Of a stretch of 64,000 nt of DNA, positions 12,860 through 45,594 are shown one piece after another. Both the position numbers and the translations under genes were made by a program. The notes beneath the pieces were generated by a model, which saw nothing but the letters and a program-made list of their open reading frames with translations, was not told the origin of the DNA and searched no databases. The stretch spans positions 2,468,641 through 2,532,640 of the forward strand of contig CP022585.1 of assembly GCA_002243285.1 (NCBI GenBank), in the 5' to 3' direction. The stretch is from Candidatus Fluviicola riflensis. Its GTDB lineage: Bacteria > Bacteroidota > Bacteroidia > Flavobacteriales_D > Crocinitomicaceae. Position 1 is the stretch's first letter; each line of letters starts with the position of its first letter.

Positions 12860-13000
12860 TGAATTTTATTAACACCAAAGTGTCTAAAGCGCTTTGCTGA
12901 GCTTGAGTTTCTAAAGAAGCGCACGGCGAAACACATAGAGACTCTGATATGAGCCGTAAATTTCACCACATAGGAGGCACAACACTTACGCCGAAGCTTC

Positions 13001-13119
13001 AGCGAAGGAGCAAAGTTTTTTTAAAGGATAAACCTGTAAGATCACAAAGGTGATCAACCTAAATCTCATTTGTGATCTTTCTAACAAGTCAAACTTATCC
13101 ATTTCTTTGCTCCTTCGCT
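13001..13119. repeat. nested inverted-repeat element upstream of the B12 riboswitch
   Basis: Outer 15-bp perfect arms AGCGAAGGAGCAAAG (13001-13015) and its complement (13105-13119), then GGATAA/TTATCC (13026-13101 region), then a 10-bp inner pair AGATCACAAA/TTTGTGATCT (13039-13048, 13069-13078). The arms partly continue outward (GCCGAAGCTTCAGC and GCTGAAGC). It has no coding potential and looks like a MITE-like or REP-like element. The remainder of the 12860-13200 gap holds only sequences resembling this element. Confidence 0.7.
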
Positions 13120-13207
13120 ATGCACCTATGCTGAAGCTATGGCATAAGCTTCGGTGAAAGCGTTGTTCCTTTGTGGTTCAATACCTTTTGGGTGTTCTTT
13201 GTGTACT

Positions 13208-13238
13208 TTTAACTGACAAATAAAATTGTGTATCTTTG
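13208..13238 (+). promoter_or_regulatory. promoter of the cobalamin operon
   Basis: TTTA (13208-13211), a 19-bp spacer and TATCTTTG (13231-13238), a consensus -7 box. Predicted initiation is about 13243-13246, just upstream of the riboswitch P1 stem. Confidence 0.7.
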
Positions 13239-13255
13239 TCACGGTTTTAGGTTTC

Positions 13256-13500
13256 CAAACAAGATGTTTTCGAACTGATTGTGAGGAATTAATAGGGAAT
13301 TCGGTGTGAATCCGAAACTGTATCTGCAGCTGTAACCCTTGCCAAAGCTGTTTCAAAAAGTCACTGTTGGTGCATTACCGATGGGAAGACGAAACAGAAC
13401 TGAGGGGAGTCAGAATACCTGCCAAAACTTGTTTGAATGAAGACTTCAGATTAAAGTCGGTTTCATAATTGAGGTAGCGCGCACCTCAGTTCTGTTTCTC
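13256..13500 (+). ncRNA. cobalamin riboswitch with expression platform
   Basis: The aptamer spans 13256-13435, closed by an 8-bp P1 (CAAACAAG at 13256-13263 with CTTGTTTG at 13428-13435). Conserved elements are visible: AATAGGGAATTCGGTG, GTGAATCCGAAACTG, GCTGTAACCC, GATGGGAAGACG, and the B12 box GAGTCAGAATACCTGCC (13407-13423). Downstream, TGAGGT/ACCTCA (13470-13475, 13483-13488) can form a local hairpin. Alternatively 13484-13498 pairs perfectly over 15 bp with 13391-13405 inside the aptamer. The two pairings are mutually exclusive, as expected of an expression platform. No clear poly-U tail follows, so control of translation or of a distal structure is more likely than intrinsic termination. 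It should repress the downstream uptake genes when cobalamin is plentiful. Confidence 0.93.
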
Positions 13501-13548
13501 ATTTCTGATTTTTCATTTGCTTTTTTAACCTTTTAAAATGCGTAAGCA

Positions 13549-14508
13549 ATGAAAAAAACATTACTATCTCTGGCCATTTTGGCCGCATCCGGTGCTTTTG
13601 CACAAACAACAGTCACTTTTGATGACCTGACACTTGATACCAACTCTTATTGGAGCGGTTCCGACGGTTCGGGATCATTTGTGGCAAACGGTATTACATT
13701 TCCCAATGAGTATGACATGCAATGGAGTTACTGGTCGGGTGGATTTATTTATTCCAACTCGACAGACATTACAACTGCCGGTTATACCAACGATTTTAGC
13801 GCATATACCGGAATCGGTGCAGACGGAAGTGCCAATTACGGTGTGAACTACGGTGGAAATCTTGATTTCGTGACGCCACGTGTGTTGAGCAGTATCGATA
13901 TCACCAATACCACTTATGCCGCTCTTTCAATGCTGAATGGTGATTCGTTCGGGAAACAATTCGGATCGCCGAACAACGCAGCCGGAAATCCGGACGGAAC
14001 AAACGGAGAGGATTTCTTCCGCTTGCTGATCACCGGTTATGATGTCAACAATGATTCCATCGGAACGGTTACTTTTTACCTGGCCGATTACCGGTTTGCA
14101 GACAGCACACAGGATTACATTCTTGATACCTGGGAAACAGTCGATTTGAGTTCACTGGGAGAAGTTCGTTACCTTGATTTTGAATTGGAATCATCTGATA
14201 CAAACGCATTGGGGATTCTTACTCCGGGTTATTTCGCGCTGGACAACCTTATTTACGACGATGTTGCAGGCGTGGAAGAAAATCCGGCCCTTGCATTTAC
14301 TCTTTATCCAAATCCTGCCAACGGGCAATTTACCGTAAAAGGTACTGCAGGAACAATTACCGTACGTCAGGCTAACGGAACCACTATTCACACAGCTATC
14401 ACAAACGGATTCAGTACAATTGATTGTGCTTCATGGGCAGCGGGCGCTTACCTGGTTGAAGTAACGAATGAAAACGGTGTTTCAAGAAACACGTTCATGA
14501 AGAACTAA
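13549..14508 (+). CDS. DUF4465 secreted protein with T9SS sorting domain (B12-regulated)
   Basis: 319 residues. Signal peptide MKKTLLSLAILAASGAFAQ, a DUF4465-type beta-sandwich (about 20-240: TVTFDDLTLDTNSYWSG, GITFPNEYD, DFFRLLITGYD, YFALDNLIYDD), then a T9SS sorting domain (LYPNPANGQFTVKG to RNTFMKN). DUF4465 proteins recur in riboswitch-controlled B12 loci of Bacteroidetes, and I recall that a surface cobalamin-binding protein of Bacteroides (BtuH) is of this kind. Here the lipid anchor is replaced by T9SS attachment. Probably captures cobalamin at the cell surface and passes it to the receptor encoded next. First gene of the operon. Confidence 0.82.
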   Translation: MKKTLLSLAILAASGAFAQTTVTFDDLTLDTNSYWSGSDGSGSFVANGITFPNEYDMQWSYWSGGFIYSNSTDITTAGYTNDFSAYTGIGADGSANYGVNYGGNLDFVTPRVLSSIDITNTTYAALSMLNGDSFGKQFGSPNNAAGNPDGTNGEDFFRLLITGYDVNNDSIGTVTFYLADYRFADSTQDYILDTWETVDLSSLGEVRYLDFELESSDTNALGILTPGYFALDNLIYDDVAGVEENPALAFTLYPNPANGQFTVKGTAGTITVRQANGTTIHTAITNGFSTIDCASWAAGAYLVEVTNENGVSRNTFMKN

Positions 14509-14509
14509 T

Positions 14510-16456
14510 TTGAAGTTCCGCTTTACATATTGCCTTTTTTCAATTCTTGTCGTGTCGCCCTGCTTGTTTGGTCAGGGCGGCCCGACGGAATTGGATTCTG
14601 TAGAAGTAAATAATAACCGGTCTTCTGAGCTTAAAATAAGCCAGGAAATCCGGAAAGTTCGGATTCAGCGCCGTTTGGTAACCGATCTTGGACAATTAAT
14701 GAGTCTCTTTACCGGTGTTCAAACCAAAAGCTATGGCGGTTTGGGTGGTATGAAAACCGTCACGTTCAGAAGTTTGGGAGCGGGACATATCAGTGTTGTT
14801 TCCGATCATTTTGCGCTTTCACAAACACAAAGCGGCCAGGCAGATTTGGGGCAAATTCCGGTTGATTTTATCCATAAACTGGAATTGACCGGTTATAATC
14901 CGCTTTCGGTGAATTATCCCATTCATTCAAAACTGGCTGGGCAAATTATTGCTATCGAAACACGGCATGTTCAGAGAATCGATTCGTTTAGCGCCAATAT
15001 CGGAACGCAATTCGGATCGTTCGGACAACTGGATGGTCATGGCTTCGTGAGTAAACGCATTTCCAAATTTCAACTGGCTGGTTCCATGAAAGGAAGACGA
15101 TTTGATGGTGATTACCCGTTTTCGTACCTCAACGGACAAACTTCTACCAAAAGCACTAGAATAAACGGCGATTTGGTGGATGTATTCGGAACGGCATCAG
15201 TTTCTTACTTCTTCTCAAAAATGCAGAAATTGCATGCTTCTTACAGCGGTGCTTATTATGATAAAGGATTGCCAGGAGCAGTTGTTTTTTACAATGAAAC
15301 GGCCAATCAGCGGTTGTCGGGAAATAATCACCTGTTTACGTTGCGACATTCAGGAAGCAGCAACCGGTTCATTTACAGCTCGGGGGCTTCATTTCAGCAA
15401 TCAGAACTCAATTACGTGGATTCGAATTACCTGAACGCAGCGGGATTTTTGCACAGTCGTTTCATTTCTCATGAATCGACTGGAAACACACAATGGCGCT
15501 ATCATTCGCAAAACGACTCGCTTTCATTTTTGGTAGGCGCCGGAGTTCGCTACGAGCAATTGTTTTCGGAAGCATTTACCACGCCTCCTACCCGCTTTTC
15601 AACCGATCTTATTTCATCATTTCAATGGCTTTGGAAAGGTAATTTTTCAGCTCAATTGGGTTTGCAGGACATTCATGATATTCGTCCAACGCAAACAAAA
15701 CGTACAACAGTTTTGCTCCCTTCCTTCGAGTGGTCGATACGCCACAAAGGCTTTTCGTTCATTGCCGGATACCGTTATACTGTTCGGCAACCATCGTTTA
15801 ACGAGTTGTATTACAATCAGATAGGAAACGATAAACTTGTTCCCGAAAAAGCTCAATTGGCTTACACTGCGTTTGGGTATTATCGCAACTTTGGAGAAGA
15901 ATCAAACTGGTTTTACCAAGGTGTCGTCCAACCGTTTTATGTGCACGCAATCGATAAAATTCTTGCCATACCAACCAAAAACTTATTCATCTGGTCGATC
16001 CAAAACATTGGAAAATCAGACGCTTACGGCACAGAAATTCGTCAGTTTATTGAGTACCGAAAAAAAGATTTTTCAACATCTGTTAGACTGCAATATACAT
16101 TTCAGTATACAATCGATCTAAGTGATCCGACCGGTTCAAGCTATCGTGATTTACTCAGTTATTCTCCAATTCACGCCGGAACAGCAGAGTTCGATATTGA
16201 GATCAAGCATTGGGGAACCAGTTTATTGTTTACTTACCAGGGCGAACGTTATGCGTTGAACCAGAATATTCCTACCAATTTGCTGGAAGATTTTGTGTTA
16301 CTGGATTTGTCTTTTTTTTACAGAAGTACTTGGCGTGAACACCAAATCACTGCCCGTGTTGCCATCAACAATCTCACTAATAATTATTACAGTTATATCC
16401 GGTATTTTGTGATGCCGGGTACGAATGTTGCTTTTCGTTTGAGTTATGATATTTAG
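14510..16456 (+). CDS. btuB: BtuB-like TonB-dependent receptor
   Basis: 648 residues. It begins with a TTG codon at 14510, one base after the preceding stop codon; no ATG gives an intact signal peptide, and MKFRFTYCLFSILVVSPCLFGQ is a good one, so TTG is the likely start with translational coupling. A plug domain (about 40-150: LVTDLGQLMSLFTGVQTKS, GAGHISVV) precedes a 22-strand-like outer-membrane barrel with alternating aromatic strands up to the terminal FRLSYDI. There is no carboxypeptidase-like N-terminal domain. Position under a cobalamin riboswitch implies corrinoid transport across the outer membrane. Confidence 0.85.
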   Translation: MKFRFTYCLFSILVVSPCLFGQGGPTELDSVEVNNNRSSELKISQEIRKVRIQRRLVTDLGQLMSLFTGVQTKSYGGLGGMKTVTFRSLGAGHISVVSDHFALSQTQSGQADLGQIPVDFIHKLELTGYNPLSVNYPIHSKLAGQIIAIETRHVQRIDSFSANIGTQFGSFGQLDGHGFVSKRISKFQLAGSMKGRRFDGDYPFSYLNGQTSTKSTRINGDLVDVFGTASVSYFFSKMQKLHASYSGAYYDKGLPGAVVFYNETANQRLSGNNHLFTLRHSGSSNRFIYSSGASFQQSELNYVDSNYLNAAGFLHSRFISHESTGNTQWRYHSQNDSLSFLVGAGVRYEQLFSEAFTTPPTRFSTDLISSFQWLWKGNFSAQLGLQDIHDIRPTQTKRTTVLLPSFEWSIRHKGFSFIAGYRYTVRQPSFNELYYNQIGNDKLVPEKAQLAYTAFGYYRNFGEESNWFYQGVVQPFYVHAIDKILAIPTKNLFIWSIQNIGKSDAYGTEIRQFIEYRKKDFSTSVRLQYTFQYTIDLSDPTGSSYRDLLSYSPIHAGTAEFDIEIKHWGTSLLFTYQGERYALNQNIPTNLLEDFVLLDLSFFYRSTWREHQITARVAINNLTNNYYSYIRYFVMPGTNVAFRLSYDI

Positions 16457-17510
16457 ATTCCTTTTCATCAGCTTATTGGCCGTAACTATTTTGGGCTGCA
16501 AGAAGAAAAAACCGGATCCTGAGACACCGGCCCCAAGTACGCTTTCGCACGGATTATTGGTGCTCAACGAAGGATTGTTTAATCACAATAATTCTTCACT
16601 CAGTTGGATCAATACCAACGATCATTCTGTTGGGAATTCGTTTTTTGAAGAAAAAACCAATCGTGGCTTGGGCGATACGGGTAACGATTTGAAGCGCTAC
16701 GGCGGAAAAATTTACGTTGTTGTGAATGTTTCCAGTACGGTTGAAATTCTGGACGCCGCTACCGGAAATTCGCTGGAGCAGATCAGTATGATTCACAACG
16801 GAACACCGAAACAACCGCGTTCTATTACTTTTTATGGTCCGAAAGCTTATGTAAGTTGCTACGACGGTTATGTGGATGTGATCGATACACTTTCGATGTC
16901 GGTAACACAACGCATTGCTGTTGGGAGCAATCCGGAAGGATTAGCGGTGAGCAACGGAAAATTGTACGTCGCGAATTCGGGCGGTTTAAATTATCCGAAT
17001 GTTGACAGCACTGTTTCGGTGATTGACCTTGGTACGAACCAGGAGATCCAACGCATTACAGTCGGGAACAATCCGGGTGGTGTTTGTGTTGACAGTGAAG
17101 GCGATATTTACGTGATCAGTCGCGGAAATTACAGCAATATTCCTTCGCGAATGCACCGCATCAATCCGGTCACGGATACAAAAGAATTTACGTTTTCGTT
17201 TGATGCCGGCGGAATGACGCGTATGAATGACCAATTGCTGATTAGTTTTTACGACTATTCTACGAGTACAAGTCAGGTTGGTTTGTTTGATGCGCTGACT
17301 GAGCAACTAAGCGTGCCGAATTATATTTCTATGTCGGGAATTACGACGTTGTATGGCGTAAGCTATTCTTCTATCACCGACAAGATTTACTGCGCAGATG
17401 CCAATGCGTTTAGTAATACGGGATTTTTGCATGTTTTTAGTTCGGCGGGTGTTTTTGAACGTACGTATAATGTGGGGTTGAATCCTTCGAAGGTATTGGT
17501 GTTTGAATAG
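16446..17510 (+). CDS. BtuG-like YncE-type beta-propeller lipoprotein
   Basis: 354 residues, overlapping the receptor gene by 11 bp. MIFRFLFISLLAVTILGC is a lipoprotein signal (Cys 18), followed by KKKKPDPETPAP. Propeller blades recur: VVVNVSSTVEILDAATGNSLEQI, VSCYDGYVDVIDTLSMSVTQRI, VAVGSNPEGLAVSNGKLYVAN (described by position about 70-350; each about 45 residues). In Bacteroides, BtuG is a surface propeller lipoprotein that caps BtuB and binds B12 with very high affinity; the gene order here supports the same role. Last gene of the unit; the ABC transporter genes btuFCD are absent from the window. Confidence 0.82.
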   Translation: MIFRFLFISLLAVTILGCKKKKPDPETPAPSTLSHGLLVLNEGLFNHNNSSLSWINTNDHSVGNSFFEEKTNRGLGDTGNDLKRYGGKIYVVVNVSSTVEILDAATGNSLEQISMIHNGTPKQPRSITFYGPKAYVSCYDGYVDVIDTLSMSVTQRIAVGSNPEGLAVSNGKLYVANSGGLNYPNVDSTVSVIDLGTNQEIQRITVGNNPGGVCVDSEGDIYVISRGNYSNIPSRMHRINPVTDTKEFTFSFDAGGMTRMNDQLLISFYDYSTSTSQVGLFDALTEQLSVPNYISMSGITTLYGVSYSSITDKIYCADANAFSNTGFLHVFSSAGVFERTYNVGLNPSKVLVFE

Positions 17511-31865: not shown

Positions 31866-31992
31866 GAATTATGAATGTTGAATTATCAATTATGAAGACG
31901 GTTCAATTGAAAATTGAAAATGTAAAATTGAAAAGGCTCCGCTACTCCTTAGGAAAGCTCCCTTCATAATTCAACATTCATAATTCATAATT
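31866..31992. repeat. AT-rich palindromic intergenic element, copy b
   Basis: Left arm AATTATGAATGTTGAATT (31867 onward, extending to ATTATGAAG) and right arm CTTCATAATTCAACATTC extending to AATTCATAATT (31962-31992). The middle is a Lys/Arg-free AT-rich stretch without ORF. It sits between divergent genes. Confidence 0.75.
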
Positions 31993-33874: not shown

Positions 33875-34233
33875 AAGTTTGAACAAGTTAGGAACCATTC
33901 ATTCGTGCAAAGCCACAATTCAAACATTCAATTTGGAAAAACACTCTAACCTTTTGAAAATCAAACTATCCATTCATTAATTCCGTTAATTTTGCTTTCA
34001 TAACCGAATACACTATTCATGAAATCTGTTTTTTTCATGGGTTATTTTACTGCATCAGCGCGACTGATTTGCACGTGATTCAGATTGTATGGGGATTTTC
34101 ATCACCCGAAAACATTCGATTCACCTGTTTTTCAATTATGTTGATGTTGCATCAGCGTGTGCCCGGTTACCACTATCACTGAACGGAGAAAGCCGAAAAT
34201 CCGATCCAAGAGTAGGCACAAATAATCACTATT
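33875..34233. other. non-coding gap / probable long leader
   Basis: A TAATTTTG box (33987-33994) could start transcription near 34000, giving a leader of about 230 nt before the gene at 34234. A 19-codon frame (34020-34079) starting MKSVFFMGYFTASARLICT lies in it; whether it is translated is unknown. No structured RNA family recognised. Confidence 0.45.
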
Positions 34234-34572
34234 ATGGCACGTTTAATCGTAAACGCCCTTTCCGAAGACACAATTGCTGCTCCGGGAAACACAAACACAA
34301 ACTACATTGTAGTTTCAGTAACAGATGCTAACGGAGTACCTGTAACAGGTCTAGGCATCGCTAATTTTGCAGTAACTCCGATCATTGTTGGTCCGGGTGG
34401 ATCAACTGGAAGTACTTCGTCTGTAACTGGCGGAAGCTTGCCGGGAACGTATCTGGTAAGAGTAATTCCAACTGCGGGACAAACCTGGAAAGCAGGAGTC
34501 TATATATTCGCAGTAGCCGTTACAAGTGGCGCCAATCGCGGACAAAACCTGTGTAGCGTTTTAATGGATTAA
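34234..34572 (+). CDS. 112-residue beta-sandwich-like hypothetical protein
   Basis: No signal peptide (starts MARLIVNALSEDTIAAPGN). Sequence is strand-forming and Gly/Thr/Val-rich, with NYIVVSVTDANGVPVTGL, a GPGGSTGSTSSVTGGS turn and PGTYLVRVIPTAGQTW, resembling an Ig-like or big-domain module (bacterial Ig-like domain about 5-105). It has a single Cys near the C-terminus. Not assigned to a family. It has a good terminator and probably a long leader, so it seems to be an independently expressed gene. Unusual in being a lone Ig-like module without export signal. Confidence 0.6.
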   Translation: MARLIVNALSEDTIAAPGNTNTNYIVVSVTDANGVPVTGLGIANFAVTPIIVGPGGSTGSTSSVTGGSLPGTYLVRVIPTAGQTWKAGVYIFAVAVTSGANRGQNLCSVLMD

Positions 34573-41128: not shown

Positions 41129-41150
41129 ACACTGAATTATCAATGGTTAA

Positions 41151-41196
41151 ATTATCAATTATAAAGAAGGACTCCTCGTTCTTTATAATTGATAAT
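41151..41196. repeat. AT-rich palindromic element, copy c (perfect hairpin)
   Basis: 18-bp perfect arms ATTATCAATTATAAAGAA (41151-41168) and its complement (41179-41196) with a 10-nt loop. It could also terminate the OmpA gene. AATTCATAATTCATAATT follows. Confidence 0.8.
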
Positions 41197-41220
41197 TCAT
41201 AATTCATAATTTTTTGTGTT

Positions 41221-41712: not shown

Positions 41713-41716
41713 TTGA

Positions 41717-41847
41717 TTTTGAATGTTGAATGCTTAATGTTGAATTGGATTTCAGGTAGTTGATTTTGGAGAAACTTATGAAACTCAAGAACTCCTTAAC
41801 TTACGAAACTCCCAATTCAAAATTCAACATTCAAAATTAAGCATTTG
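41717..41847. repeat. AT-rich palindromic element, copy d
   Basis: Left arm TTTTGAATGTTGAATGCTTA with ATGTTGAATT; right arm AATTCAAAATTCAACATTC plus AAAATTAAGCATTTG (41814-41847). The right arm runs into the coding region of the minus-strand gene and supplies its last three codons and TAA stop. Confidence 0.8.
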
Positions 41848-45445: not shown

Positions 45446-45594
45446 TTTAATGTTGAATTTTGAATGCTTAATGTTGAATTATCAAGACCGTTCTTCTGGT
45501 ACAGTTTTCCTGATAATTTTTCAATTTATAATTGATAACTCAATCGAAGCCTAGCTTCATTCAAAATTCAACATTAAGCATTCAACATTATTAA
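45446..45594. repeat. AT-rich palindromic element, copy e
   Basis: Left arm TTTAATGTTGAATTTTGAATG plus CTTAATGTTGAATT (45446-45482); right arm TTCATTCAAAATTCAACAT with TAAGCATTCAACATTATTAA (45556-45594). It ends 2 bp before the ATG of the YdcF gene, so it occupies that gene's promoter or leader position. Confidence 0.8.

Follow-up and report, generated by a model that had tools for sequence, protein, structure and literature searches.

A perfect 15-nt complement between the aptamer and the expression platform of a cobalamin riboswitch in Candidatus Fluviicola riflensis: a candidate strand-exchange helix

Several described riboswitches can be compared with the cobalamin leader RNA studied here. 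The translational riboswitch of Escherichia coli btuB is described as using anti-Shine-Dalgarno and anti-anti-Shine-Dalgarno logic (PMC11162775). In the corrinoid riboswitch of Priestia megaterium metE, a P13 hairpin stabilized by a kissing loop is reported to decide between two folds of the platform (PMC10653944). The phylum to which the present organism belongs is reported to lack Shine-Dalgarno sequences, and Flavobacterium johnsoniae is described as tuning initiation by structure near the start codon (PMC6847099). An expression platform of B12 riboswitches in Flavobacteriales was not found among the titles in the literature matches listed.

The DNA analyzed here, called the window, is a stretch of 64,000 nucleotides from Candidatus Fluviicola riflensis, and all coordinates refer to it. 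Its leader RNA is identified by sequence as a cobalamin riboswitch, with a predicted response to AdoCbl. The RF00174 match (gathering score 31.5 bits) spans the entire model, includes 38 standard pairs from the Rfam structure line, and was confirmed by a search of the same genome. The kissing loop between L5 and L13 has five of five possible pairs in all 14 leaders compared from the genus, every one of them invariant. The features of the leader and of the genes that follow it are these:

13232..13440, + strand: cobalamin riboswitch aptamer, RF00174 (cmscan 91.5 bits, E 2.3e-21, model positions 1-189 of 189)
13321..13326, + strand: loop L5 (UAUCUG), 5' partner of the kissing loop (AUCUG at 13322-13326 with CAGAU at 13447-13451; invariant in 14/14)
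13336..13340, + strand: 5' strand of P7, pairing with 13402-13406 in the fold
13348..13354, + strand: 5' strand of P8 (CUGUUUC), pairing with 13391-13397 in the fold
13391..13405, + strand: arm 1 of the 15-nt complement, GAAACAGAACTGAGG, which is the 3' strand of P8/P7
13408..13423, + strand: B12 box, AGUCAGAAUACCUGCC (from the sequence and the RF00174 alignment)
13434..13451, + strand: pre-P13 strand, the proposed anti-anti-start, AAUGAAGA..CAGA, which can pair with 13504-13517
13442..13458, + strand: P13 hairpin with loop CAGAUUA complementary to L5 (invariant in 14/14 genus leaders)
13467..13491, + strand: local hairpin 2, its 3' half overlapping arm 2 (101/122 cells paired in 14 leaders)
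13484..13498, + strand: arm 2 of the 15-nt complement, CCTCAGTTCTGTTTC, overlapping the 3' half of hairpin 2
13509..13520, + strand: anti-start strand, UUUUUCAUUUGC, pairing with GCAAUGAAAAA (13546-13556)
13549..14508, + strand: the operon's first gene, for a DUF4465 protein carrying a type IX secretion tail (PF14717 E 3.3e-53, PF18962 E 5.9e-9)
14510..16456, + strand: TonB-dependent receptor, BtuB-like by context (PF07715 plug, E 1.2e-5)
16446..17510, + strand: DUF5074 protein, BtuG-like by context (PF16819 E 8.7e-17)

The stems that contain the arms are widely paired in the genus. Across the 14 leaders, gaps set aside, 68 of 70 cells are paired in P7 and 73 of 77 in P8, with changes on both sides, and hairpin 2 shows several two-sided changes. 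P7 and P8 are the names used here for these stems; the P8 register differs slightly between the fold and the Rfam alignment. Hairpin 2 was considered as the P13 that kisses L5 and was rejected: its loop AGCGCGC mismatches L5, while CAGAUUA at 13447-13453 matches. By eye, L5 reads UCCCG and L13 reads CGGGA in some other members of the family. The start codon (13549-13551) falls inside the target of the anti-start strand.

The genes downstream of the riboswitch are predicted to form a B12 uptake operon. Eight distantly related DUF4465 members are reported to bind B12 (PMC13398666), and BtuH is described as a name linked to B12-binding DUF4465 proteins. The closest named relative (L156, Fluviicola sp.) has 86% protein identity. 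DUF5074 is presumably the domain that corresponds to BtuG. A four-codon open reading frame, ATG CGT AAG CAA TGA, lies at 13538-13552, overlaps the start of the DUF4465 gene (ATGA), and is a possible uORF; its ATGC is in another frame in L008 and in frame with the gene in L014. Elsewhere in the genome there is a second RF00174 match (L002, G000:C1:3405124-3405258) of 135 nt and 33.6 bits, apparently of a shorter type.

The core of the RNA is that of an AdoCbl riboswitch (RF00174), with the same aptamer core, B12 box, L5-L13 complementarity, and position upstream of B12 uptake genes. The difference is that the lineage of the window adds a perfect 15-nt complement between P7/P8 and the platform, and this does not make it a new class of riboswitch. 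As in btuB, a strand of the ligand state is predicted to hide the initiation site, and a competitor strand to remove the hider when ligand is absent. However, the region hidden here is the start codon (AAUGAAAAA, 13546-13556), whereas btuB hides a Shine-Dalgarno sequence; reading by eye, no Shine-Dalgarno-like GGAGG was seen 5' of the start codon. The platform may work like that of btuB without being the same. Like metE as it is described, the leader has a P13 strand common to the hairpin and to an alternative helix, but metE combines the 3' side of P13 with a terminator and an antiterminator, and the window combines the 5' side with an anti-start strand (PMC10653944). With strand-exchange riboswitches, as these are presented in PMC10907184, it shares an invading strand, branch migration, and mutually exclusive helices; it differs in that the invaded strands are those of the peripheral P7/P8 and the invader is a perfect 15-nt strand.

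The reading preferred here, with a probability of about 0.42, is that the complement gives this lineage a strand-exchange helix on top of an otherwise ordinary cobalamin OFF riboswitch that serves B12 uptake genes. With ligand bound, P13 would be kept shut by the aptamer together with the L5-L13 kissing loop, and 13509-13520 would pair with the start codon (OFF). When ligand is absent, the anti-start strand would be captured by the pre-P13 strand at 13434-13451, and the start codon would be released (ON). If no ligand locks P7/P8 when 13498 emerges, arm 2 would displace the 5' strands of P7/P8, and this invasion would dismantle the aptamer and help to commit the RNA to the ligand-free branch. 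We infer the OFF logic and translation as the level of control. The 15-bp helix would presumably form in cells, and it would favor ON provided that the anti-start strand is held by pre-P13 in a pseudoknot. To our knowledge, the invasion of peripheral P7/P8 stems by a perfect 15-nt strand is unusual. If the helix is used, this would be a natural, irreversible strand-exchange riboswitch acting via peripheral aptamer helices, with the sister species and 12 relatives in the genus without the perfect match as ready controls. The conserved platform offers, independently of this, a testable account of how B12 riboswitches could act on translation in a group that lacks Shine-Dalgarno sequences: an anti-start strand would cover the start codon, and a start-codon mimic beside P13 could remove that strand.

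The Watson-Crick match between the arms is real and far beyond chance. The initial annotation had reported a perfect 15-nt complement with one arm inside the aptamer just before the B12 box, and both parts of this are correct: 13391-13405 and 13484-13498 are 100% complementary and 78 nt apart, and arm 1 lies within the RF00174 match, 5' of a box that begins at 13408. The local hairpin TGAGGT/ACCTCA is also there, at 13470-13475 with 13483-13488, and extends to nine pairs as 13467-13475/13483-13491. With small irregularities allowed, the long-range duplex has 22 pairs (13383-13405 with 13484-13506, -30.6 kcal/mol). None of 1000 dinucleotide shuffles of 13232-13560 contained a 15-nt inverted repeat, and the longest was 13 nt, in one shuffle. 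The heptamer CUGUUUC is present twice, at 13348-13354 in the P8 5' strand and at 13492-13498 in arm 2. The window contains several other clusters of perfect 15-nt inverted repeats with arms at most 300 nt apart, so it is the aptamer-to-platform position that matters and not the length by itself. Such repeats of at least 15 nt lie at 31866-31986, 41150-41197, 41716-41837, and 45447-45585.

The distribution of the match among relatives is most simply read as a single origin. An RF00174 match was found in each of the 14 genus genomes searched. From the 30 matches listed, 14 leaders of the same type were picked by eye, and the remaining 16 are of other leader types; one of the 14, L025, ends at a contig end and scores 24.3 bits, under the cut-off. 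The search of the wider family gave a match in 186 of 200 genomes, and the loci were drawn from among the matches listed, with 100 of the listed places fetched as extra loci. Removal of 20 loci without landmarks reduced 155 to 135, and the 100 of these with this type of P13 and a usable start were compared. The longest Watson-Crick match from the aptamer to the downstream region is 15 nt in the window (L001) and in L012; none of the remaining 98 leaders exceeds 10 nt. When G-U pairs are allowed, L055, L089, and L134 reach 15 nt too, and L136 reaches 17. The coupling energies of the window (-11.8 kcal/mol) and of its sister L012 (-13.3 kcal/mol) are the two lowest of the 100 (mean -5.3, sd 2.4), and they are matched by 5 of 60 and 9 of 60 shuffled-downstream controls, respectively. 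Perfect arms are present in only these two of the 14 genus leaders, and the tree places them together (support 97/96, starred), which makes one origin the simplest reading.

Comparison of the two sisters does not separate the possible causes of conservation. The arms have 0 changes in 30 positions, compared with 17 in 287 for the other leader columns and 104 over the gene's first 600 nt, which counts for the preferred reading. By our own arithmetic, however, 0 changes in 30 nt at 6% divergence has a chance of about 1 in 6, and identical arms fit selection on P7/P8 and hairpin 2 as well as selection on the 15-bp helix. A search of a plasmid collection gave only two short matches, covering 15% of the query.

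The chief alternative is that the perfect match is a mutational by-product, which is quite possible though short of even odds. An ancestral imperfect repeat, formed by the purine-rich P7/P8 strand and the pyrimidine-rich strand of hairpin 2, would have been perfected by template switching during replication, with readjustment of P8, and the regulated switch would consist only of P13, the anti-start strand, and the start codon. Constraint on the two arms from P7/P8 and hairpin 2 would then preserve the match. Template switching is reported to be able to make perfect stems in RNA genes (PMC8794818), and the two perfect cases are one clade. Imperfect pairing near the same register speaks for a by-product and counts for the preferred reading too. 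It is found in eight of the 12 other genus leaders, whose best duplexes have 9 to 11 pairs at most one column away from the register of the window and 2 to 7 pairs exactly on it; within one column L008 has 8 pairs and L007 has 5. L009 and L025, which are near the window on the tree, have no pairs of this register, a point against the preferred reading. Among 13 slides of the register in these 12 related leaders, slide 0 is the best with 115 of 168 cells paired, a GU-rich pairing, and the next has 97 of 156. Between 7 and 16 of 500 shuffles pair as well as L014, L017, L018, and L019, and 38 to 380 of 500 are as good as the other eight, L025 and L009 being weaker than the shuffle mean. The imperfect pairing is suggestive at most, since these leaders are related.

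The 15-nt arms, perfect only in two sister species, have no independent covariation. Own partners pair better than swapped partners over the 14 leaders (p 0.014), and the effect is absent without the two sisters (p 0.59), which favors the by-product. Family-wide covariation of the arms was tried and rejected: in 25 loci outside the genus, own partners are no better than swapped ones (p 0.44, 0.51). Arm 1 against the downstream region is nothing special in 46 representatives compared with shuffles (mean z -0.45). A pooled test of 45 loci, mixing leader types and including both sisters, gave p 0.004. Two considerations weigh against the by-product. A perfect match required the P8 5' strand, the P8 3' strand, and arm 2 to fit one another, which takes more than a single change. 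Also, the 15-bp helix lies 11.9 kcal/mol below the next enforced state and should be harmful if it formed without a function.

Sequence and folding together show which strands can pair, that the alternatives are incompatible, and that the core platform is conserved. As the initial annotation had proposed, the aptamer with the local hairpin and the long-range duplex exclude each other. In prefix folding, P8 (1.00) gives way to the 15-bp helix (1.00) between RNA ends 13490 and 13500; at end 13490 P8 is kept and hairpin 2 is also formed (0.96), and in the 15-bp state hairpin 2 is gone. These and the following folding numbers exclude ligand, the kissing loop, and tertiary contacts. For 13232-13560 without ligand, the 15-bp fold is the minimum at -87.5 kcal/mol, compared with -75.9 kcal/mol when the core, P1, and P8 are enforced. 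For 13232-13600 the energies are -101.3 kcal/mol with the 15-bp helix, -89.4 with the anti-anti-start helix, -86.0 with the aptamer, and -83.0 with the aptamer and P13. The arms are fully paired in the ensembles of the window and its sister at all three RNA lengths, and partially in L018 (9.1 to 12.1 pairs) and L009 (4.1 to 5.4).

Exclusion of the two folds stands, but the explicit two-state model built on it falls short as a full account of regulation. Mean start-region pairing is 0.93 in the 15-bp state and 0.91 in the aptamer state, so the 15-bp helix by itself gives no ON/OFF. It is 0.95 with the aptamer and P13 and 0.40 in the anti-anti-start fold, the only one of the enforced states predicted to free the start codon. 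The model leaves out the kissing-loop hairpin at 13442-13458, and the conserved parts are different from those it names: P13, the kissing loop, the anti-start strand, and the start codon are kept in 14 of 14 leaders. In addition, path search gives a high barrier after P7/P8 formation. As heuristic upper bounds at 37 C, the barriers from the aptamer to the 15-bp fold are 19.9 kcal/mol (end 13505) and 24.2 kcal/mol (end 13560), and the barrier out of the anti-anti-start fold is 33.3 kcal/mol. Judging from these models, P7/P8 and hairpin 2, once formed, may never exchange with the 15-bp helix. That the helix may never populate after P7/P8 form is a further point for the by-product, and these barriers, like the paired start codon of the 15-bp state, weigh against the preferred reading.

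The preferred strand-exchange helix would act together with the anti-anti-start helix. The two cross, and nested programs therefore cannot display both together. A rough pseudoknot estimate for the combination is -96.6 to -99.2 kcal/mol, compared with -101.3 kcal/mol for the 15-bp helix with the start paired. An extended version of this idea, a one-shot switch, is unlikely. Without ligand, the 15-nt strand (up to 22 pairs) would irreversibly invade P7/P8, destroy the aptamer, and lock a ligand-free pseudoknot with the anti-anti-start helix; each transcript would read cobalamin once, during its own synthesis, and remember the result.

The platform around P13 and the start codon is conserved in the genus and has a signal in the wider family. 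Every one of the 14 aligned genus leaders can form the P13, kissing-loop, and anti-anti-start pairs. The pre-P13 strand resembles the start-codon region, and both can pair with the same anti-start strand, with duplex energies of -13.1 kcal/mol for pre-P13 and -11.0 kcal/mol for the start. The core of the pre-P13 duplex has eight of eight pairs possible in all 14 leaders, all invariant, and the nine main pairs between the anti-start strand and the start are kept in all 14, with one gap in L012. In 46 family representatives with under 80% similarity to each other, the start's own downstream partner was beaten or equalled in 0 of 10000 permutations, which ignore shared ancestry; for the pre-P13 strand, too invariant to show covariation, 5816 of 10000 were as good. 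Taken individually, the start is significant in 17 of 46 and pre-P13 in 15 of 46 (at most 5 of 100 shuffles as good). In 42 of the 46 (17.4 expected), the best partners of the two strands share 4 nt or more; this overlap is due in part to the likeness between the strands, and that likeness is the proposed mimicry. The B12 box also has a downstream partner (-9.6 kcal/mol in the window; 7 of 10000 permutations as good in the 46). It is retained as no more than an additional candidate antisequestor, since a signal of this kind can arise from shared ancestry. Extra DNA lies between the anti-start strand and the start codon in L010, L013, L019, and L030 (alignment columns 308-371).

The predicted winning fold varies with the point at which the RNA is cut. 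In unconstrained ensembles at three lengths, the anti-anti-start helix dominates throughout only in L013 and L030 (2 of 14). L008 and L017 favor it only when the RNA is shortest and turn to start pairing at the greater lengths; L010, L011, L014, L018, and L025 are mixed or length-dependent. In the window, L012, L007, L009, and L019, it has at most 0.4 pairs at all three lengths and the start stays paired. The expected pairs between the anti-start strand and the start are 10.3 to 10.5 in the window and 0.0 to 1.5 in L013 and L030.

Control of transcription in place of translation is quite unlikely. Hairpin 2 would be a terminator, and the 15-bp helix an antiterminator that forms without cobalamin, which fits the classical logic of strand-exchange riboswitches. 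A scan marks 13467-13491 as terminator-like, and most of the 14 genus leaders retain hairpin 2, which the 15-bp state removes. Premature termination is proposed for cobalamin riboswitches of Bacteroides thetaiotaomicron, also of the Bacteroidota (PMC12751083), and for ten of 15 Gram-negative taxa with such loci one or more positive results for action at transcription are described (PMC12121620). However, hairpin 2 is followed by CUGUUUCUCA, and the first run of five U begins at the 18th base past the stem. A rule given for terminators asks for five or more U directly after the stem (PMC9600662), so hairpin 2 fails this rule, which may not be that of this phylum. The scan is itself weak, with three terminator-like matches on both strands compared with 0.9 expected.

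In a third state, the 15-bp helix would trap the RNA in OFF whether or not ligand is present, since it takes away the aptamer and leaves the start codon paired with the anti-start strand. This is very improbable, although it is the literal predicted minimum (start-region pairing 0.93) and fits the start pairing of the window as compared with L013 and L030. It would keep an uptake operon shut off in the absence of B12, which is hard to justify biologically. The ON pseudoknot, of a kind that nested folding omits, comes within 2 to 5 kcal/mol by the rough estimate. In addition, L007, L009, L012, and L019 are also start-paired at all three lengths, three of them without perfect arms, so that this prediction is no mark of the 15-bp helix.

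Two other elements were noted in the window. Directly upstream of the riboswitch, at 12975-13170, there is a palindromic element of about 196 bp with nested inverted repeats. Counting this copy, the genome contains 55 matches to it, full or partial, so it probably belongs to a dispersed MITE- or REP-like family. An RF02914 DUF805b motif (41.9 bits, gathering score 35.6) lies at 34183-34218, about 15 nt before an open reading frame at 34234.
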